NCBI RefSeq assembly: GCF_003385595.1
Contig: NZ_QNUE01000002.1
Coordinates: forward strand, 1-64,000
DNA: 64,000 bases
Direction of reading: 5' to 3'
Origin: Chryseobacterium flavum
Lineage (GTDB): Bacteria > Bacteroidota > Bacteroidia > Flavobacteriales > Weeksellaceae
Each line of letters starts with the position of its first letter. Within the stretch, counting starts at the first letter, position 1. Shown here one piece after another: positions 9,450-51,634 of the stretch. A program made the translations under genes and the position numbers. The notes under the pieces were generated by a model. It saw nothing but the letters and a program-made list of their open reading frames with translations. It ran no database searches and was not told the DNA's origin.

Positions 9450-9532
9450 TATATTAAATTTTGTGGTTTATTTAAAGATAATATTTATAACCCAGCCCCC
9501 ATTCTTGATTTTAATTAAAAAAATCTATTAAA

Positions 9533-10543
9533 TCACACAAATTCTTTCAATTTCCTTGGCGGATAGTTTTCCACCAGATTTGCAATTGCTTTAATATGTT
9601 CCGGAGTTGTCCCACAACATCCCCCGATAATATTAATCAAGCCTTTTTCCACATATTCTTTGATCTGTCTGGCCATATCCTCAGGAGTTTCGTCATATTT
9701 TCCGAAGGCATTCGGTAAACCGGCATTCGGGTATGCGGAAACATAAAATTCCGAATTATGGGCCAATGTTTCAAGGTAAGGTGTCAATTGATCTGCTCCC
9801 AATGCGCAGTTAAATCCAACACTTAACAGATCCAGATGAGAAACAGATATCAGGAATGCTTCCGCTGTTTGTCCGCTTAATGTTCTTCCTGAAGCATCTG
9901 TAATGGTTCCTGAAACCATAATCGGAATCTTGATACCTCTTTCTTCCTGGAGTTCATCAATAGCAAATAAAGCAGCTTTAGCGTTTAATGTATCAAAAAT
10001 TGTTTCTACCAGCAGTATATCTGCACCCCCATCTAACAATGCCTCACACTGTTGTTTGTAAGCTACTCTCAATTCTTCAAAAGTGATTGCTCTGTATCCC
10101 GGATCATTGACATCCGGACTTAAGCTTGCCGTTCTGTTGGTTGGACCTATGGATCCTGCTACGAATCTCGGTTTATCAGGATTCTTAGCGGTATATTCGT
10201 CACAGGCTTTTCTTGCAATTTTCGCAGACTCATAATTCAATTCATAAACCAGGTCCTCCATATGATAGTCTGCCATTGCAATTGTAGTTCCTGAAAACGT
10301 ATTGGTTTCAATAATATCAGCTCCTGCTTCCAGATATTTTTTATGAACTTCTTCAATTGCCTGAGGCTGTGTCAGGGAAAGAAGATCATTATTCCCTTTT
10401 ACCGGATGATTCCAATCTTTAAAACGTTCACCGCGGTAATCTTCTTCTTCAAACCTATACCGCTGAAGCATTGTTCCCATAGCTCCATCCAGGATAAGGA
10501 TACGTTCTTTAAGGGCTTTGTTTAGTGATTCTATATTTGTCAT
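9533..10543 (-). CDS. metH: Methionine synthase, homocysteine-binding subunit
   Basis: This 336-residue homocysteine S-methyltransferase module corresponds to the first domain of full-length MetH. The barrel starts with [13 protein letters not shown]. The zinc-binding cysteines that activate homocysteine are in GFNCALG and in [11 protein letters not shown] near the C-terminus. Alone it could be a cobalamin-independent methyltransferase. However, it lies in the same operon as the folate/cobalamin half, and the lengths complement each other, so the two most likely act as one enzyme. Its start MTNIESLN leaves a 64-bp gap to metZ upstream. The fatty acid desaturase gene intervenes before the C-terminal half. 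Confidence 0.93.
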
Positions 10544-14398: not shown

Positions 14399-14456
14399 TT
14401 CTATTATTTTAATACAATTGAAAATGCCACAGGAAATGGCTGAAGAACTTCAGTAA

Positions 14457-14559
14457 GTTATCTGTCCAAAATTATTTGGTAGAACGTAGCACCTTCTTTG
14501 CTTGCGCAAAGGGTTGCTAAGGTTTCATAGGGTCTAATCCCTCAACCTTTCTTGATAAC
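14457..14559 (-). promoter_or_regulatory. SAM-I riboswitch (S-box) controlling the methionine operon
   Basis: Read on the minus strand, GTTATC (14559-14554) starts helix P1 and closes with GATAAC (14462-14457). Between them lie AAGAAAGGTTGAGGGA, then GACCCTATGAAACCTTAGCAA and a P3/P4-like hairpin, matching the conserved S-box core. In this family S-adenosylmethionine binding shuts down the downstream genes. The gene start is 58 bases further on. That gap holds CTGAAGTTCTTCAG (14453-14440) and GCCATTTCCTGTGGC (14440-14426), two small hairpins without a clear T run. The mechanism is therefore not obvious from sequence. Confidence 0.95.
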
Positions 14560-14588
14560 ATTTTCAATATTTGAATGAACGAATGGTG

Positions 14589-43371: not shown

Positions 43372-44397
43372 TTAGCTAACTTTTTTTGGTTTTCTCCAAA
43401 TAAAGCCGTCCAGAAGATAATGAGTGAGCTGCGGAACAACCAATAAAGGAACCAGAAACTGAAAGAGATTTTCTGAGATCACCATATTCAGGGAAAAGTG
43501 CTCATTCCAGACAAGTGTTTCCCACAAAAATTCTTCGAGAAAGGCAAACAATAAAATGACACCGACAAATAGGAATATTCCTGAAAACGGTTTAAAAATC
43601 TGCATCCGGTTCAGCTGATGATTTTCTTTTTGCTTTATTTCCCGGATATAAATCAATGCGATGTAAGGAATCCCATGAGAAACCACATTCAGAAAGGTAA
43701 AAAGGAGATCATTGTTAAAGTAAACAATTCCGAAATACCAGGAAAGAAAAGTTCCGGTGATCAGTGCTGTTTTGGGGACATTAATTTGTTTGGTTTTACA
43801 AGCTTCAAAAACAGTTTTAATGATCCAAATGATCAGGATTGAAAAATAGATTATGCTCATCCAAGGAGTATAGTTTGGGAGATTCTGAAGCCAGTCAAAC
43901 TCATTGTTGACAAACCAGGTGAAGGCTCGGGGCGTTTTAAACCAGTACAGCATCGGATAAATCGTTGCGGAATACACAGCCACCTCATCTATTTTTTTGC
44001 TCCAGTTATTCGGTTCAAAGCGCGCATAGATTCTCATAAATCCGTATTGCTGCCGTATAAAATGAAAAACGGCAATCAATGCCAGGCCCGACCAGAAGGT
44101 CAGACTTCCAAACTGAAACAGGATCATTCCCAATATCCAGCTCAGAACAGGAATTCCCATGTACAGCAGCTTATTTCTCTGGACCTCTCCTTTTACAAAA
44201 TAGGTTTTAAACAGCGTGGAATATACATGAGCTACATCTACGAAGACGATCAGAAAAAGCCAGGTATAAAAGGAATAGTAATTTTCCAGCCCCTGAATCT
44301 GTTTCTGAAAGAGAAAAATAATCATCAATACCAGAAAAGGCGGCGATAAAATAAACCACCAGTCTGTTTTTGCGTTATGTATCCACGGCTGTTTCAT
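43372..44397 (-). CDS. Polytopic membrane protein with intramembrane histidines, polyamine cluster
   Basis: This 341-residue protein has about nine membrane helices. Several helix-located motifs contain histidine: DVAHVYST near residue 55, AVFHFIRQQYG near 118, VVSHGIPYIAL near 237 and LTHYLLDGFIWR close to the C-terminus. This spread of polar histidines, with accompanying Asp and Arg, recalls membrane metal enzymes such as hydroxylases and desaturases, although none of their exact boxes is present. I do not recognise the family. It lies nine bases after the flavoprotein gene in a tight operon, so it probably acts in the same pathway. Confidence 0.65.
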   Translation of the reverse strand: MKQPWIHNAKTDWWFILSPPFLVLMIIFLFQKQIQGLENYYSFYTWLFLIVFVDVAHVYSTLFKTYFVKGEVQRNKLLYMGIPVLSWILGMILFQFGSLTFWSGLALIAVFHFIRQQYGFMRIYARFEPNNWSKKIDEVAVYSATIYPMLYWFKTPRAFTWFVNNEFDWLQNLPNYTPWMSIIYFSILIIWIIKTVFEACKTKQINVPKTALITGTFLSWYFGIVYFNNDLLFTFLNVVSHGIPYIALIYIREIKQKENHQLNRMQIFKPFSGIFLFVGVILLFAFLEEFLWETLVWNEHFSLNMVISENLFQFLVPLLVVPQLTHYLLDGFIWRKPKKVS

Positions 44398-44406
44398 TGT
44401 ATTATT

Positions 44407-45999
44407 TTAAATCATTTGTTCTGCAGTCCGGATTCCCTGATAAAAAGCTTCTTCAAAAATAGATATTCCCGAAAGATCGGAATGAGCAAAGAAAATTTTA
44501 CCTTCTATCGGTTCTTTTGCTTTTTGGGTTTCTTCTCCAAAAATCTGGTTGGGAATCGGAGCGATCATGGCATGTCCAATTTTATGGAACTGCATTTCCA
44601 GAATAAAATCTTCTATCAACGGATGTGCTTTCTTCAGATCATCCAAAACTAAAGTTTTAAGTTCAGGCTCCTTCATAGCGTAGAGCTTTTTCCTTGCTTT
44701 CTTGCAGTCTCCGGTTGAAAAACTTTTATAGTGAGTAATTACTTTTTCGCCTATAACCTGGTTCAGATTCTGGTGCTGGTCGAAGATATAGCCTAATCCC
44801 GAAGAACCGTAGATCACATTATCCCAGGCCAGCTCTTCATCTCCTCCAAATTCATTTTTCAATGTAATAGTTGTTAAAAGCCAGGGCACGTAATGAAATG
44901 AAAATGCTTTTTTATGATTAAAAATTCTTTCATTCACAAATTGTGGTGATGCAAAGAGTAATTTATCCGCAATGATCTTTTTTGTTTTCTTTTGAGAATT
45001 ATCAAAACTTAAGACCTCAACTTTATCATTGGTTTTTACATCAAAAACAAGATTTCCCGGCATATGTTTTCCCTCCGTGTATTTTGAAAGATGTTTTGCC
45101 AGTCTTGCATTTCCTTCCGGCCATGTGAATACCTGATCTTTATATTTTGTACTCCAGTTATTTTTCCTACCAGCAAAGTAATGAATTCCTGCCCATGCCG
45201 AAACGTAGTCTGTTCCCAATCCAAAATCATCCCTGCAGGAATAATCCAGCAGCCAGAGAAGTTCTTCCGAGTGGAAATTATTTTCTTTGAGCCAGTCTTT
45301 AAAAATGATTTTTTCAAGCTTTACAACCTCATCTTCTCTGCTGGAATCATGTACTGGAATAGCAAACCAATATCTTTCTTCAGTGTCTTTCTTTACACGG
45401 AACTCATCCATCAGTTTAAAAAAGCGGGTAAGATCTTGCTGAGTTTGTGCTGAAATTCCTCTTTGCGGAACAATATCATTCTGCCAGGCATTTTTATAAA
45501 ACAGTCTTTCCTGTTGTGGAAATGTCATTTGGTATTCATCAAGGATGGGTTCTCCGTTTTCTTCTGTTCCTAAGCAGATTTCACATTCTTTCAGAAAGTC
45601 GATGATTTCTGTATTCTCTTTGTTCGGTAATGGTAAATAATGAGCCCCTAAAGGAAATTTTGAAAATGAGTTTTCTCCGTTGGAAGAATTGCCACCAAGA
45701 TGATTTTCCATTTCCAGAAGAAGATAATCTTTTTCATTATGCTGACTGAAAAATCTACATGCCGAAAGTCCGGAAATCCCACCACCAACAATAAGATATT
45801 TTGTGTGGATAACTTCTGAAAACTGTGGAAAATCTTTTGCCCAAAGCCGATGTCCAAGAACATGATTTGTCCCTGTAATCTTCAGCAGCAATGACTTTAC
45901 TTTCTTTCCGCAATACTGCAAAAAGGGAAGCATAAGACTACCTAAAAATATAGTTGTAATAAAATCTTTTCTACTGTACTTTCCCCCACTCTTCATCAA
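44407..45999 (-). CDS. FAD-dependent amine-oxidase-like oxidoreductase, polyamine cluster
   Basis: This 530-residue protein has an N-terminal SRKDFITTIFLGSLMLPF segment that looks like a Tat-like signal or anchor (Arg-Lys instead of twin Arg). The FAD-binding loop LIVGGGISGL is at about 70-78, followed by LLLEMENHLGGNSS. The C-terminal end (FFAHSDLSGISIFEEAFYQG) has the second FAD motif of the flavin amine oxidase/protoporphyrinogen oxidase group. It overlaps the SpeE-like gene by 29 bp. Such enzymes can oxidise amines, including polyamines. The partner genes make a polyamine or aminopropyl product probable as substrate, but this is inference. Confidence 0.8.
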   Translation of the reverse strand: MMKSGGKYSRKDFITTIFLGSLMLPFLQYCGKKVKSLLLKITGTNHVLGHRLWAKDFPQFSEVIHTKYLIVGGGISGLSACRFFSQHNEKDYLLLEMENHLGGNSSNGENSFSKFPLGAHYLPLPNKENTEIIDFLKECEICLGTEENGEPILDEYQMTFPQQERLFYKNAWQNDIVPQRGISAQTQQDLTRFFKLMDEFRVKKDTEERYWFAIPVHDSSREDEVVKLEKIIFKDWLKENNFHSEELLWLLDYSCRDDFGLGTDYVSAWAGIHYFAGRKNNWSTKYKDQVFTWPEGNARLAKHLSKYTEGKHMPGNLVFDVKTNDKVEVLSFDNSQKKTKKIIADKLLFASPQFVNERIFNHKKAFSFHYVPWLLTTITLKNEFGGDEELAWDNVIYGSSGLGYIFDQHQNLNQVIGEKVITHYKSFSTGDCKKARKKLYAMKEPELKTLVLDDLKKAHPLIEDFILEMQFHKIGHAMIAPIPNQIFGEETQKAKEPIEGKIFFAHSDLSGISIFEEAFYQGIRTAEQMI

Positions 46000-47485
46000 A
46001 ATAACGGACTAATATCTGGTTATCCAGACGGTTAACTTCTACGTCTTTCACCTTCATATCTTTACTAAAATAAGACATCTGTGAAAAATTGTAATCATAA
46101 TATTTTAATCCAGGCAGCTTTCTGTAGATCCTGTTGTTGATGGGTTCAAATGAAGCCATAGAAAATCCCCATTCGCCAAAAGACGGAACATAAGTGTGAT
46201 ATGCTGCTGTGAAAGGAAAAATCTGATTGATTGTTTTTTCAATACACCAGAAAGATTTCGGAGCAAAATACGGAGAGGTGGTCTGAACTACAATCTTGGT
46301 ATCAAGAGTTGTCAATCTCTCCAGTTCTTTATAAAATTGTAAGGAGTAAAGTTTCCCCAAGCTGTAATTGGACGGGTCCGGAAAATCTATGATAATGACA
46401 TCAAACTTCTTTTTGTTTTCTTTTACCCAAATGTAAGCATCTTTGTTAATCACTTCCACTTTAGGATTGGAAAAAGAACTTTGATTCAGCCTTCGCATAG
46501 TTTCATTGGTTTTGAAAAACTGAGTCATCTCACCGTCAAGATCCACAAGTGTTATTTTTTTAACGTCTTTATATTTTAATACTTCCCTTGCTGCAAAACC
46601 ATCACCGCCTCCAAGAATCAGGACATTATCTATATTTTTTGCCATAGACATCGCAGGATGTACCAAAGCTTCATGATAACGGTATTCGTCGGTAGATGAA
46701 AACTGTAAGTTGTTGTTTAAATACAGACGGAATTCGTGAGTGTTTCTCGTTAATACGATTCTTTGATAGGGTGAGTTTTTGGTATAGACTACATTTTCAC
46801 CATATAACTTTTCTTCTGAATAGGATAAAATAGTATCTGAGAAAATGAAAAGTCCTAAAAGAAATACAAATGCTGCAAGAGATTTTACTTTGAGTGATAG
46901 AGGTTTTGATAATTCCTTTGTAAGATAATAGCACAGGAATATCGCAATGGAAATATTGATTAATCCAAAAAATAAAGGGGTTTTGACAATTCCTAATTTT
47001 GGAATCAAAACCAGTGGAAAAAGAATAGATGCCAATAAAGCTCCGATATAGTCGAATGCAAAGACGTTTGAAACTAAATCTTTAAATTGAACCCTGTCTT
47101 TTAAAATATTCATCAGAAGCGGGATTTCCACTCCTACAAGACATCCGGTGAAGAAGACAAAGAGATAGAGAACGCTTTCAAAATGTGCCAGTGTATTAAA
47201 CAGAATAAAAAGCACAACAGAACTGATTCCGCCTACGATTCCTACAAGGATTTCGATCTCAATGAATTTATCAATAAGATTTCCTTTGATGAATTTCGCA
47301 AGGTAGGAACCTACTCCCATTGAAAAGAGATACACTCCGATAATGAAAGAAAACTGCTTTACAGAGTCTCCTAAAAGATAGCTCGCCAGGGCTCCGGCCA
47401 CCAGCTCATAAATCAATCCACATGTAGCAATGACGAATACTGAAAACAATAAAAGCAGCTCAAGAGGAATCCTCTTCTTATCCAT
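45971..47485 (-). CDS. Integral-membrane aminopropyltransferase (spermidine synthase-like)
   Basis: This 504-residue protein has two parts. Residues about 10-220 form seven or so membrane helices. Residues 230-500 match the polyamine synthase fold: LYLNNNLQFSSTDEYRYHEALVHPAM (254-279) is the substrate-binding stretch, VLILGGGDG (288-296) binds decarboxylated AdoMet, and VIIIDFPDPS carries the catalytic acid region. Membrane-fused SpeE-like proteins are known but little characterised. The usual donor, decarboxylated S-adenosylmethionine, is supplied by the speD gene of the same operon. It overlaps the DUF350 gene by 8 bp and the flavoprotein gene by 29 bp. The acceptor amine is unknown; it might be at the membrane or outside it. 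Confidence 0.88.
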   Translation of the reverse strand: MDKKRIPLELLLLFSVFVIATCGLIYELVAGALASYLLGDSVKQFSFIIGVYLFSMGVGSYLAKFIKGNLIDKFIEIEILVGIVGGISSVVLFILFNTLAHFESVLYLFVFFTGCLVGVEIPLLMNILKDRVQFKDLVSNVFAFDYIGALLASILFPLVLIPKLGIVKTPLFFGLINISIAIFLCYYLTKELSKPLSLKVKSLAAFVFLLGLFIFSDTILSYSEEKLYGENVVYTKNSPYQRIVLTRNTHEFRLYLNNNLQFSSTDEYRYHEALVHPAMSMAKNIDNVLILGGGDGFAAREVLKYKDVKKITLVDLDGEMTQFFKTNETMRRLNQSSFSNPKVEVINKDAYIWVKENKKKFDVIIIDFPDPSNYSLGKLYSLQFYKELERLTTLDTKIVVQTTSPYFAPKSFWCIEKTINQIFPFTAAYHTYVPSFGEWGFSMASFEPINNRIYRKLPGLKYYDYNFSQMSYFSKDMKVKDVEVNRLDNQILVRYFDEEWGKVQ

Positions 47486-47693
47486 GAATTGCTGCGCTTA
47501 TGATCATTGAAATTCCGATAATAAATGCCGCGAAGACAATAGCAATTGCTATATTTTTGTTCTGGGCGATCTCGTGCCATGTTTTTTCAGGAGTCAGTTT
47601 TTCAATAATGAAATAACATACAAGTAAAATGGCGATTCCTAAAAATGAATAAAGAACCGAGTTTAGTATGGGTAAGAAATTGATGTTGTCCAT
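47478..47693 (-). CDS. DUF350 membrane protein, polyamine cluster
   Basis: This 71-residue protein has two membrane helices (about 10-30 and 47-69). It matches the DUF350 family, which includes E. coli YjfL. In E. coli that gene is encoded with a glutathionylspermidine-synthetase-like amide ligase, a known link of this family to polyamine-type chemistry. Function is unknown. It overlaps the SpeE-like gene by 8 bp and follows the 64-residue gene by 12 bp, so it is clearly part of the cluster. Most DUF350 proteins have about 130 residues and two units; this is a single unit. Confidence 0.75.
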   Translation of the reverse strand: MDNINFLPILNSVLYSFLGIAILLVCYFIIEKLTPEKTWHEIAQNKNIAIAIVFAAFIIGISMIISAAIHG

Positions 47694-47705
47694 AGTTTTA
47701 TATTT

Positions 47706-47900
47706 TTATTTGTGATAGTATCTGTAGAATCCTACTCTGGAATGGCTTCTTGTAGTTCCGTCGCGGTATGTTTCGGTTTTGGCACAGTCGCAGACCTGAT
47801 TTCCCCGGTATGTAAGGTATACAAACCAGGTCATGAAAAATCCTCCGATCAGGCAGAGTATCCAGTTTTGTCTTATGTAATTGGTTATATTAGTTATCAT
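47706..47900 (-). CDS. Small single-span membrane protein, polyamine cluster
   Basis: This 64-residue protein has one hydrophobic helix at about 13-31, then a short hydrophilic tail with a CDC motif (Cys37, Cys39) and several Arg and Tyr residues. I recognise no family. It starts 11 bases inside the end of the DUF4178 gene and stops 12 bases before DUF350. Real translation is likely because of this tight coupling and because the tail composition is not random. The CDC pair could bind metal or form a disulfide. Confidence 0.65.
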   Translation of the reverse strand: MITNITNYIRQNWILCLIGGFFMTWFVYLTYRGNQVCDCAKTETYRDGTTRSHSRVGFYRYYHK

Positions 47901-49353
47901 TGGCAGGATAAGGTGAGTTTGAACTATTCTTCCATTTGTTTACATTAAAGTAATGTTTTCCTATCCACATCACCACAAACAGAGCAATCATTATGAATAA
48001 AATAATTCCGAAGTTCCAGAATGAAACGGGAAGCCAGGTTGCTTTGAGCTGTACATAGGTATTGTTTGAAATGGGGTCTGTAGTAAGTCTAAGGGCTTCA
48101 GTATTAATCAGAGAATCCAGTTTCTGAGTTCCGAACGATGCTTTGGCAAGTCTGATTACTTCTGATGTATCTTTTTCCAGCGTCTGTCTGTCTGTAAAAG
48201 TCTTGGTCTGCACCTTGAATATATCAGTAACCTCAATTGTTCCTGATTTATCCCGTGAAATCATGACCTTCGAATCAGGAGATGTAAGACCTGAAAATGA
48301 GGGTAAGCCTCCTTCTTTTTCGGCGGAAATAATGAAATGATATTTCCCGGAGCCTACTCCACACAGGTTAAAATCTTCAGACTGACTTCCTTCTGTCCAG
48401 CTTTCCCCACCTTCGTAACCATGATACTGTTCGATATCTTTGGAGGTATAGATAATTTCGTTGGTATTTTCGTTCACAAGGCTTAGCTGAACATTCGCCC
48501 AGGAATTATCAACACCTGAAAAAGCATTCACCTTTAATGGAGCTGAACCGCCGGACAAGGTAAAGCTTTTGCTGACCAACTCTTTGTCTTTTACATCTGC
48601 AAAATTGATGGTCTCTGCAAAAACGGTTTCGTTGGTTCTTGAAGTGTAGACATACATCTGGAGCAGGCAAATCATTAATGCAGCCACACAAAAGATGTTC
48701 ACGGCTTGCCTGATATCGAAATAATAGGGCTGAACAATCCCTATTCCTGTATAATTGGGCAGATTAGCTATTTTAAAAGCTTTCTTAACTTCATATTTTG
48801 AAATGTGAACTCCATAGAAATACTGGCTTTTTCTGCTGGTCTTCTCCTGAGAGATCATACGGGTTCCGTTAACATATTCTTTGTAGGTAGCAATGGTGAA
48901 ATCCAGATGTTCATCAAAAAATCCGGCTGCAGCATCAATAGTGCATGGAGTATTTTCGTACCACCGATAGGTTCGTCCGGCATAGGTGGGTAATTTCGAA
49001 TTTTTACCTTTAAAATCATCAGGATGCATAGAGATCAGGAATACCCAATGCCCATCGCTCTCACTCAGGAAAGCACCATTTCCTTTGCTGTCTTTTAAAG
49101 AATATTCTCGCCAGAAAATACTGTTTCCGTATTTTTTAACAGTAATCGCAACGACCGTATATTCTGTACCGTCAATTTTTCCTTTTTGTCCGACATCCAA
49201 TACAACATTTTCAGTTGGGACTTTCAGATGTTTAATTTTTTTGTTCCAGGCTACATCAATGAGATGGGAGCAGGTCATACAAACGTATTCTTCAACAGGA
49301 AAGGTGAGATCTAATGTATTTTCGGATTCGCATGCTGGGCAGACATAGTGCAT
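47890..49353 (-). CDS. DUF4178 membrane protein with zinc ribbon, polyamine cluster
   Basis: This 487-residue protein opens with a zinc ribbon (CPAC at 5-8, CMTC at 25-28). A beta-rich DUF4178-type region follows, with YTVVAITVKKYGNSIFW near 70-90. There is a membrane helix near 230-250, an extracytoplasmic stretch, and a C-terminal helix at about 450-470. DUF4178 is found with DUF350 and SpeD/SpeE genes in many bacteria and is uncharacterised. It ends two bases before speD in gene order, making these the tightest pair in the cluster. The zinc ribbon suggests protein or nucleic acid binding. Confidence 0.8.
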   Translation of the reverse strand: MHYVCPACESENTLDLTFPVEEYVCMTCSHLIDVAWNKKIKHLKVPTENVVLDVGQKGKIDGTEYTVVAITVKKYGNSIFWREYSLKDSKGNGAFLSESDGHWVFLISMHPDDFKGKNSKLPTYAGRTYRWYENTPCTIDAAAGFFDEHLDFTIATYKEYVNGTRMISQEKTSRKSQYFYGVHISKYEVKKAFKIANLPNYTGIGIVQPYYFDIRQAVNIFCVAALMICLLQMYVYTSRTNETVFAETINFADVKDKELVSKSFTLSGGSAPLKVNAFSGVDNSWANVQLSLVNENTNEIIYTSKDIEQYHGYEGGESWTEGSQSEDFNLCGVGSGKYHFIISAEKEGGLPSFSGLTSPDSKVMISRDKSGTIEVTDIFKVQTKTFTDRQTLEKDTSEVIRLAKASFGTQKLDSLINTEALRLTTDPISNNTYVQLKATWLPVSFWNFGIILFIMIALFVVMWIGKHYFNVNKWKNSSNSPYPANDN

Positions 49354-49355
49354 TT

Positions 49356-49715
49356 TTATCTGTAAATTTTGTGTTTTTGAATGGTATTAGCTTTAAAATA
49401 CTGAACAACCTCATCTGCAATCTTTTCTACTTTTGCGGTATTGTCCTGCATGTAATTACAAAGGAAAATATCAAAAGTAAGCTGTTTAAATTCCGGCCAC
49501 GTATGGATACAAAGGTGAGACTCTTTCAGAATCACTGCGGAAGTAAAACTATCATTCTCAAAAATATGATTGGTTATTCCTACAATTTCCACTTCTTTGA
49601 TTTTCAGAATTTCTTCTGTAAATGCCAGAAAGCCTTTGCTGTCTAATAACAAATCTTCTGACTCTGTTTCCAAAGTCAGAAGAATATGTAAACCTTTACT
49701 TGATAATGGGTTCAA
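49356..49715 (-). CDS. speD: S-adenosylmethionine decarboxylase
   Basis: This 119-residue prokaryotic-type SpeD cleaves itself to form a pyruvoyl cofactor and decarboxylates S-adenosylmethionine to the aminopropyl donor. The self-cleavage site is in ESHLCIHTWPE at 65-75 (Ser66 becomes pyruvoyl; His71 and Cys86 are the usual proton-transfer residues). Length is typical of the short bacterial form. It sits two bases before DUF4178 and 15 bases after the citrulline-hydrolase-like gene. A SpeE-like partner is in the same operon. No arginine or ornithine decarboxylase gene for the diamine acceptor is seen here. Confidence 0.92.
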   Translation of the reverse strand: MNPLSSKGLHILLTLETESEDLLLDSKGFLAFTEEILKIKEVEIVGITNHIFENDSFTSAVILKESHLCIHTWPEFKQLTFDIFLCNYMQDNTAKVEKIADEVVQYFKANTIQKHKIYR

Positions 49716-49730
49716 TTTTTTGTAAATATA

Positions 49731-50654
49731 TTATTTTTTCGGAAGAAAAACTTCAGCAAGCATACACCTTGCACTTCCTCCTCCATTTACTTCAATAGTT
49801 GTAAGATCAGAGTATATAATTTCACAGTATTTTTCAATAGCAGCTACTTGTCCCGGTACTAATGAACGGTAAGCCGTTTCACTCATAATCAGGAACTTTT
49901 CTCCTTCTTTATTCTGAACCTGAAGCATATTTCCTGCAAACTGCTGCATCTGATCCTCCGAAATTTCAATAATCTCCTTTCCTGAGTTCTTAATTGTTTC
50001 AATTACCTTTTCTCTTTCCAGTTCATCATCAATACAGTCAAGGCATATTACAACAAACTTATCAGCCACACACATCATTACATTGGTGTGATAAATAGGA
50101 AGCCTTTCAGTCCCTACGGTCTGGTATGAATGGAAAACAACAGGAGTAAACCCATATTTTTTACAGAATTCCCTGAACAGGTTTTCATCCAGTCTCAGCG
50201 AAACGGATCCGTAAGCAATTTTATTATCATGATCAAAAATCATACTTCCGGTTCCTTCCAGGAAATGTCCCTGGGTTTCAGAAAATGACCAGTCATCAAT
50301 TTCAGTAACTTCAAATCCCTGATCTTTGATACTTTCAATAATATCTTCTCTTCTTTCCACTCTTCTGTTGGAAGCGAACATCGGATATAAAACCACCTTT
50401 CCGTCTTTATGGAAACTTACCCAGTTATTAGGAAAAATAGAATCCGGTGTGTGAGGATCCAATGTATCTTTTATTGTAATAACATTGATTCCTTTGTCTC
50501 TCAGTTTTCCGACAAAAGTATTGAATTCGGCTAAAGCTTTTGACTGGATATCTGATCCGGTCTGCTCAACCTGAAAATAATTGTTTTTCGCTGTTTCAGC
50601 GTTGTAACCGAATGCAATCGGTTCTATCATTAATACGGTATCTGTTGTTTGCAT
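49731..50654 (-). CDS. Citrulline-hydrolase-like (CtlX) guanidino enzyme
   Basis: This 307-residue member of the amidinotransferase/arginine-deiminase superfamily has MIEPIAFGYNAETAKN near the start. It has FPNNWVSFH in the first third, EGTGSMIFDHDN with conserved acids, and NGGGSARCMLAEVFLP at the end with the nucleophile Cys297. The layout fits the CtlX group proposed to act in citrulline use. Substrate could be citrulline, arginine or a related ureido/guanidino compound. It is followed by speD after 15 bp and preceded by a second superfamily member at 65 bp, so the two probably work in one pathway. Confidence 0.8.
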   Translation of the reverse strand: MQTTDTVLMIEPIAFGYNAETAKNNYFQVEQTGSDIQSKALAEFNTFVGKLRDKGINVITIKDTLDPHTPDSIFPNNWVSFHKDGKVVLYPMFASNRRVERREDIIESIKDQGFEVTEIDDWSFSETQGHFLEGTGSMIFDHDNKIAYGSVSLRLDENLFREFCKKYGFTPVVFHSYQTVGTERLPIYHTNVMMCVADKFVVICLDCIDDELEREKVIETIKNSGKEIIEISEDQMQQFAGNMLQVQNKEGEKFLIMSETAYRSLVPGQVAAIEKYCEIIYSDLTTIEVNGGGSARCMLAEVFLPKK

Positions 50655-50719
50655 TTTTGTGATTTAAAAAATTAAAAGATTGAAGATTAGTAAATTTCCC
50701 CAATTCTAAACTTCCGGCC

Positions 50720-51634
50720 CTACTCCCTTACAAGCGGCATGGTAGAACATCTTAGTAAACCTCCCATTTTAGAGATCTCACGGTATGGTATTTCTTCTAC
50801 TGTCATTCCCCATACATCTCTTAAATGATTGTTCATTCTTGTAAATGCCTTGTCAGAAACAACAACTTCAGGAGAAATAGAAAAAATATTAGGAAACATT
50901 TCAAACATTTCTTCATCGTTAATATGAAAACAGTTTTCCTCCCCAAAAATATCAATGATTAAACGATAATCGCTTTCATCTACAAATCCGTTTTTATAGA
51001 TGATACATTTATCCTTTCCTACCGGGTTGAATGTACAGTCCAGATGCAGAATTCCTTCAAACGGAACTTTATCGTTCTTCTTTAGCTCAAGGTCAATAAT
51101 TCTTTTCTTCGGAAAATATTCTTTTAAAATTTCAATAGCATATTCATTGGTTCTTGCCGTTTTATAGTTTCTGTAATCTTCACTAAAGCAAGTTCCAATG
51201 AAAAGGAAGTCATCCCATACGATCACATCTCCCCCTTCAATATGTGCTGTTTCCGGAAGATTGATAATCTTTCTCCAGGCTACTTTTTCAAAAACACTTT
51301 TGTATGCCTCCTGCTCATCCGCTCTGTCAGCAATTACATTGGAAATGATCATTTTATCATCAATTACAAAAGCGACATCTCTGGAGAATACCTGATTATA
51401 ATCCTTAATGATGCTTGGACGAAGTACTTCAACATCATACTTTTTTAAAACGGCCTCAAAAGCGTTCATTTCATTGATGATATCCTCTTCTTTAGGATAA
51501 ATATTATGTTCGATTGAATAATATGACTTGGCGTCATAACTTTCTTCTAATGTGGGAACAGGTCCCAGCGAATTAGGCTGGCCTAGAACTACTGACTTCA
51601 GCCTTCCCGTTTCATTTTTAATGTTTAGTCTCAT
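50720..51634 (-). CDS. Arginine-deiminase-family hydrolase
   Basis: This 304-residue protein of the arginine deiminase/dimethylarginine hydrolase superfamily has MRLNIKNETGRLKSVVLG at the N-terminus, typical of the group, IEGGDVIVWDDFLFIG, HLDCTFNPVGKD, and MGGLLRCSTMPLVRE with the nucleophile Cys296. It could convert arginine to citrulline, or act on methylated or other guanidines. It is the first gene of the cluster; its promoter must lie in 51635-51700. Co-location with the CtlX-like gene gives arginine to citrulline to ornithine as a hypothesis that would supply a diamine precursor. Confidence 0.82.
   Translation of the reverse strand: MRLNIKNETGRLKSVVLGQPNSLGPVPTLEESYDAKSYYSIEHNIYPKEEDIINEMNAFEAVLKKYDVEVLRPSIIKDYNQVFSRDVAFVIDDKMIISNVIADRADEQEAYKSVFEKVAWRKIINLPETAHIEGGDVIVWDDFLFIGTCFSEDYRNYKTARTNEYAIEILKEYFPKKRIIDLELKKNDKVPFEGILHLDCTFNPVGKDKCIIYKNGFVDESDYRLIIDIFGEENCFHINDEEMFEMFPNIFSISPEVVVSDKAFTRMNNHLRDVWGMTVEEIPYREISKMGGLLRCSTMPLVRE

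Follow-up and report, generated by a model that had tools for sequence, protein, structure and literature searches.

What a spermidine-synthase-like enzyme fused to a membrane domain does in Chryseobacterium flavum, next to an S-adenosylmethionine (AdoMet) decarboxylase, a flavoprotein and several membrane proteins, is the question raised by one locus of the window analysed here, a stretch of 64,000 nucleotides (contig NZ_QNUE01000002.1, positions 1 to 64,000, assembly GCF_003385595.1). An earlier note, made from the sequence alone, had described nine overlapping or nearly touching open reading frames on one strand as a membrane-linked polyamine cluster, and we located all nine on the minus strand where that note had placed them. 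Seven of these genes, from speD to the gene of a polytopic membrane protein hereafter called mem341, make up the functional unit (43372-49715, minus strand). With a probability of about 50%, we propose that together they constitute a membrane-bound system for aminopropyl transfer, with enzymes working on either face of the inner membrane.

The gene unit and its boundaries

The seven genes are tightly packed, with intergenic gaps of +2, -11, +12, -8, -29 and +9 bp from speD to mem341. Using mem341 as a query against bacterial and archaeal species genomes, we collected 370 relatives and kept the best 80 loci, which come from Chryseobacterium, Epilithonimonas, Elizabethkingia, Flavobacterium and a few closely related metagenome-assembled genomes. 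All seven genes are present in identical order and strand in 79 of these 80 loci, the sole exception being a truncated contig of 4.4 kb. Such an arrangement is far beyond chance, and the co-occurrence survey that the earlier note had called for found the genes together rather than scattered.

The other two genes of the nine are neighbours. They code for a CtlX citrulline-utilisation hydrolase (49731-50654, minus strand; NF046062, 439 bits) and an arginine-deiminase (ADI)-like amidinotransferase (50720-51634, minus strand; PF02274). Both are found beside the block in Chryseobacterium, Epilithonimonas and Elizabethkingia, and neither beside it in Flavobacterium. CtlX is also retained in all 14 Chryseobacterium genomes that lack an intact SpeE gene, and the ADI-like gene adjoins CtlX also where the block is missing. 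Because the two genes are absent beside the Flavobacterium blocks and stay in place at the empty Chryseobacterium sites, we rejected them as members of the system and reduced the proposed nine-gene unit to 43372-49715.

In 10 of the 14 block-less Chryseobacterium genomes, only 60-282 bp separate CtlX from the gene on the GH43 side of the locus, with syntenic flanks and the seven genes gone as one. The gap is approximately 0.7-2.8 kb in three more; for the remaining one (L202), the stretch examined did not contain a recognisable GH43-side gene. The seven-gene block is gained or lost as a single unit. In one genome without the block (L204), the gap from CtlX to the GH43-side gene still contains a 231-bp remnant of mem341 (9527-9757, 73% identity), which suggests that the block was deleted there. 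At the same place, two other genomes without the block hold unidentified DNA (L201, 9045-11863, about 2.8 kb; L205, 7067-8350, about 1.3 kb).

Transferase, oxidase and polyamine background

Profile searches agree with the assignments of the earlier note, namely SpeD, a SpeE-like enzyme, a flavoprotein, DUF350, DUF4178 and two membrane proteins without known family. The SpeE fusion (45971-47485, minus strand; NF002956, 638 bits for a cut-off of 472) departs from canonical soluble spermidine synthases by its N-terminal domain with 7-8 transmembrane (TM) segments, which precedes a spermidine-synthase-like aminopropyltransferase (Spermine_synth, residues 268-448). The catalytic motifs are in place, since GGGDG and the Asp pair of DxxD (D367, D370) are kept in 40-42 of the 42 fusion sequences compared. 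The C-terminal domain matches the solved aminopropyltransferases 7xif (best, E 2e-46), 6bq2 and 1uir, and its nearest solved structures include thermospermine synthase and polyamine aminopropyltransferases. The Asp of the LDG motif, present in three solved soluble sequences, is replaced by Asn in 40 of the 42 fusions. In the membrane domain, E27, E120 and D145 are invariant (42/42) and lie inside predicted TM segments or at their edges. An anti-phage role, suggested by a single PADLOC match (mad2), was rejected, as this match is confined to the methyltransferase-like part of SpeE and therefore reflects a shared domain only.

SpeD (49356-49715, minus strand, TTG start) is a class 1b AdoMet decarboxylase (PF02675, 70.5 bits; TIGR03330, 64.8 bits, under the cut-off of 75.65) whose alignment shows that the pyruvoyl-forming ESH motif and the HTWPE motif are retained. 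A Cys in its C-terminal part (FLCN in the window) is Ser in the homologues L152 and L153.

These are the only speE-family and speD genes of the C. flavum genome. The fusion SpeE is found in 13 of 35 congeners searched besides C. flavum, a weak and broken match in G014 being excluded, and each of the 31 Chryseobacterium genomes tested, whether it has the block or not, carries a gene of the deoxyhypusine/homospermidine synthase family. In Flavobacteriaceae, the main polyamine has been reported to be homospermidine (PMC3072086). The presence of a single, patchily distributed SpeE together with a universal homospermidine synthase weakens the case for ordinary spermidine synthesis and indicates that the block does not serve housekeeping polyamine synthesis, which fits the inner-membrane aminopropyl system that the earlier note had proposed. 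For bacterial homologues of the membrane-aminopropyltransferase fusion, experiments reportedly showed no part in making spermidine or spermine (PMC12803844, citing Li et al. 2019). A carboxyspermidine route was discarded too, as the nspC matches in the genome remain below the cut-off and probably correspond to diaminopimelate decarboxylase.

The flavoprotein, called AOx here (44407-45999, minus strand; NAD_binding_8 and Amino_oxidase signatures), has a flavin amine-oxidase fold and is a predicted periplasmic lipoprotein, with a twin-arginine translocation (Tat)-type signal followed by a lipobox Cys. We compared 23 AOx sequences, drawn from Bacteroidota, Alpha- and Betaproteobacteria and Gemmatimonadota. 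All of them keep the Tat Arg and three His residues (H50, H120 and H476), and 21 have a lipobox-like Cys. The earlier note had taken this protein as simply another inner-membrane partner. Its signal motifs predict instead that it is exported and should face the periplasm, with the transferase facing the cytosol.

The structure model of AOx (predicted local distance difference test score, pLDDT, of 72; predicted template modelling score, pTM, of 0.76) is closest to the spermidine dehydrogenase SpdH in Foldseek (E 1e-17), and VIA-align ranks putrescine oxidase first (Z 23.5, root-mean-square deviation 4.2, 395 aligned residues). These closest folds argue for amine oxidation as the type of reaction. 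SpdH of P. aeruginosa (7d9f-7d9j) is likewise a flavin enzyme with an amine-oxidase fold, although only ~15% identical to AOx. Its heme b is held by His54 and His562 (PMC12564564), and the invariant His residues of AOx are similarly placed, one before the FAD domain and another close to the C-terminus, a likeness that is suggestive only.

We then counted full-length fusion SpeE, AOx and strong mem341 matches in one set of 395 Bacteroidota genomes, which yielded 29, 15 and 11 genomes, respectively. The three are nested: all 11 genomes with mem341 have AOx, and all 15 with AOx have the fusion SpeE, whereas 14 of the 29 fusion-SpeE genomes gave no AOx match at E 1e-30. The chance of AOx nesting within SpeE to this extent is 1e-19, a value that is too small because it does not allow for kinship between the genomes. 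The direction is nevertheless clear, in that AOx needs SpeE and SpeE does not need AOx.

Membrane partners and relatives of the system

The four other products of the unit are membrane proteins. The 341-residue mem341 (43372-44397, minus strand) is polytopic by hydropathy, with four conserved His motifs (H57, H112, H241 and H326), and matches no Pfam or NCBIfam entry. Its model, of low confidence (pLDDT 66), gave no clear fold match, the best being rhodopsin-like bundles at Z ≤7.4. Distant homologues of 355-450 residues occur in other Bacteroidota (L158-L167; 22-27% identity where scored by BLAST), with no SpeE nearby and no Pfam family, and the gene for one of them (L160) adjoins a tryptophan 2,3-dioxygenase-like gene.

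The DUF4178 protein (47890-49353, minus strand; PF13785, 36.9 bits for a cut-off of 25) consists, according to hydropathy and alignment, of a zinc ribbon, DUF4178, a TM segment, a predicted periplasmic domain (residues 239-437) and a second TM segment. It is the fastest evolving protein of the block, with a median identity of 56% compared with 90% for SpeE. A 64-residue protein with a single predicted TM segment and a basic C-terminal tail (47706-47900, minus strand), devoid of Pfam or NCBIfam matches, is present in 79 of the 80 loci, and in Novosphingobium a 48-residue gene product occupies its slot. The DUF350 protein (47478-47693, minus strand; PF03994, 53 bits over 61 of 133 model positions) is short, with 71 residues and two TM segments by hydropathy.

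As for regulation, a promoter scan gave no excess over shuffled sequences. A 13-bp inverted repeat near the 5' end of the speD coding region (49654-49683, minus strand) could form a hairpin, whose pairing is conserved in Chryseobacterium: at least 11 of the 13 pairs are kept across 14 sequence types, and pair 7 changes from G-C to A-T on both sides in seven loci, one of the two changes altering the SpeD protein (Ser to Leu). The repeat is missing from Epilithonimonas, Elizabethkingia and Flavobacterium and represents a possible regulatory element of Chryseobacterium only. Far from the block, the window also harbours a SAM riboswitch (RF00162, 82.8 bits; 14455-14561, minus strand).

Clusters combining an AdoMet decarboxylase, an MFS/SpdSyn fusion and DUF350 were reportedly described by Li et al. 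in 2019 (Biochem J 476:2579). In these, SpeD, the membrane-domain/spermidine-synthase fusion and DUF350 are likewise clustered, in genomes without a need for spermidine synthesis. The block has the same three elements, with a polytopic fusion, a SpeD with its pyruvoyl motif and a DUF350 protein. Compared with those clusters, it adds the predicted exported oxidase and mem341, its DUF350 has two TM segments, and its DUF4178 protein spans the membrane.

Ravi et al. (2024; PMC11237479) described further relatives. Their second group, the PspA-CesT/Tir operon, has the 7TM-SpdSyn fusion, DUF350 and DUF4178 in common with the block. In contrast, the block is devoid of PspA, CesT/Tir and the Ctha_1186 lipoprotein, its DUF350 has two TM segments rather than eight, its DUF4178 is fused to a zinc ribbon, two TM segments and a periplasmic domain, and the oxidase and mem341 are extra. 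In their third group, a band-7/SHOCT variant, SpeD, DUF350 and a flavin polyamine oxidase share one operon as in the block, but that operon is built around an ATP-grasp glutathionylspermidine-synthetase-like ligase and no fusion SpeE is named.

The earlier note had seen no PspA or amide ligase at the locus, and this was borne out. No PspA, CesT/Tir or SPFH gene lies in the seven-gene unit of any of the 79 loci, the lipoprotein of locus L038 has no match in any of the 80, and the ligase family (GSP_synth, PF03738) is absent from the C. flavum genome. A PspA gene is present elsewhere in that genome, on contig C3, the window being on C2.

Two architectures can be distinguished. The first combines a short DUF4178 protein, a separate lipoprotein and an 8-TM DUF350, often with PspA/CesT (L036, L038, L240, L241, L246, L247 and L249). 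The second, that of the window, has the long zinc-ribbon/2-TM DUF4178 protein, the small TM protein, a 2-TM DUF350 and AOx, and sometimes adds SPFH and a second DUF4178 (Novosphingobium L170; L244 and L245). In a SpeE tree, all AOx-linked fusions of the second architecture fall into one clade of 23 sequences with 100/100 support, which includes L238 and L239. One fusion of the PspA-type clade (L038a) adjoins homologues of AOx and mem341 (23% and 34% identical, respectively), and the oxidase pair is therefore tied to two deeply separate SpeE clades. At locus L038 (3074-17534), two divergent blocks each contain a fusion SpeE gene. PspA, CesT/Tir and an ion channel accompany the first, mem341 and AOx the second, and the locus also has another PspA gene and a flotillin-like gene.

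The oxidase-bearing form without mem341 also occurs in Pseudomonadota and Gemmatimonadota. Neither this spread nor the form that lacks PspA and combines the predicted exported oxidase with mem341, its boundaries or the nesting was found in the literature searched, in which Li et al. 2019 was represented by papers citing it. The core is already published (Li et al. 2019; PMC11237479), and the form that bears the oxidase is a variant, so far little described, of a system that is known but unsolved.

Proposed mechanism and alternatives

In the mechanism that we infer, including its topology, acceptor, transport, direction of flow and purpose, SpeD would produce decarboxylated AdoMet in the cytosol, and the SpeE fusion, held in the inner membrane, would move the aminopropyl group onto an amine other than putrescine. 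The steps before transfer follow from the well-known enzyme families involved. The membrane domain of SpeE, with its three invariant acidic residues, may bind or move the acceptor or the product. DUF350, the 64-residue protein and the DUF4178 protein, the latter with its zinc ribbon and DUF4178 in the cytosol and its other domain in the periplasm, may scaffold or gate SpeE. AOx, as a Tat-exported lipoprotein, would act with mem341 to oxidise the product on the periplasmic side, either as an eraser or as a maturation step.

Several observations weigh against this scheme. Loci L238 and L239 contain this core but neither AOx nor mem341, which implies that oxidation is not always needed. The second Tat Arg is a Lys in Chryseobacterium AOx (SRK, not RR), and the topology of the system is predicted from hydropathy and motifs only. 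No Lys is conserved in at least 21 of the 23 AOx sequences, unlike the catalytic Lys of monoamine and polyamine oxidases. The folds of phytoene desaturase and protoporphyrinogen oxidase score nearly as high as those of amine oxidases (Z ~21), so the fold of AOx does not fix its substrate.

The acceptor is probably not an ordinary polyamine; a lipid or peptide, as suggested in the earlier note, is conceivable. It is possible, if less than likely, that the product is a free exported polyamine: SpeE would aminopropylate a soluble amine such as homospermidine or agmatine, the product would leave through the membrane domain, and AOx would degrade it outside in the manner of SpdH. The intact catalytic motifs of SpeE, its proximity to thermospermine synthase and polyamine aminopropyltransferases, the expected availability of homospermidine (synthase in 31/31 genomes) and the resemblance of AOx to SpdH and putrescine oxidase are all consistent with this proposal. 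Nevertheless, the fusion homologues reportedly make neither spermidine nor spermine (PMC12803844), nearly all fusions have Asn where the solved soluble enzymes have the Asp of LDG, and DUF4178, DUF350 and the small membrane protein are left without a clear role.

More doubtful is a write-and-erase cycle on a lipid, in which SpeE would aminopropylate an amine-bearing lipid of the inner membrane, the membrane domain would flip it, and AOx and mem341 would oxidise the attached group on the periplasmic side and pass electrons to the quinone pool; we found no report of an aminopropylated lipid from such a system in the literature.

An envelope-stress function, put forward by Ravi et al. 2024 (PMC11237479) for the PspA-bearing relatives, appears unlikely here. 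The aminopropyl chemistry would alter the membrane surface and recruit band-7/PspA-type proteins, encoded elsewhere in Chryseobacterium. In Novosphingobium and many Bacteroidota, the related core has PspA/CesT-Tir or SPFH genes beside it, and C. flavum has its PspA gene on another contig, but no such gene belongs to the unit in the 79 loci. As it names a purpose and leaves the substrate open, this proposal is compatible with a two-sided aminopropyl-transfer system.

Lastly, AOx and mem341 might be a separate lipid- or pigment-modifying pair, a desaturase-like flavoprotein and a membrane enzyme sharing only regulation with the core, in line with the nearby desaturase and protoporphyrinogen oxidase folds, the missing Lys and the existence of the core without them, but this is very unlikely given that AOx never occurs without the fusion SpeE in the 395 genomes and that a second, distant SpeE clade is associated with the pair as well.

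Returning to the proposed aminopropyl-transfer system, membrane-fused aminopropyltransferases have been reported in thousands of bacteria, and the oxidase-bearing variant narrows the search for their acceptor. Because AOx is found only with the fusion enzyme and is predicted to be exported by the Tat route, the SpeE product or a derivative should reach the periplasmic side with an oxidisable amine. Chryseobacterium species that share a homospermidine background but differ in whether this site holds the block represent natural comparisons for metabolite and lipid mass spectrometry.

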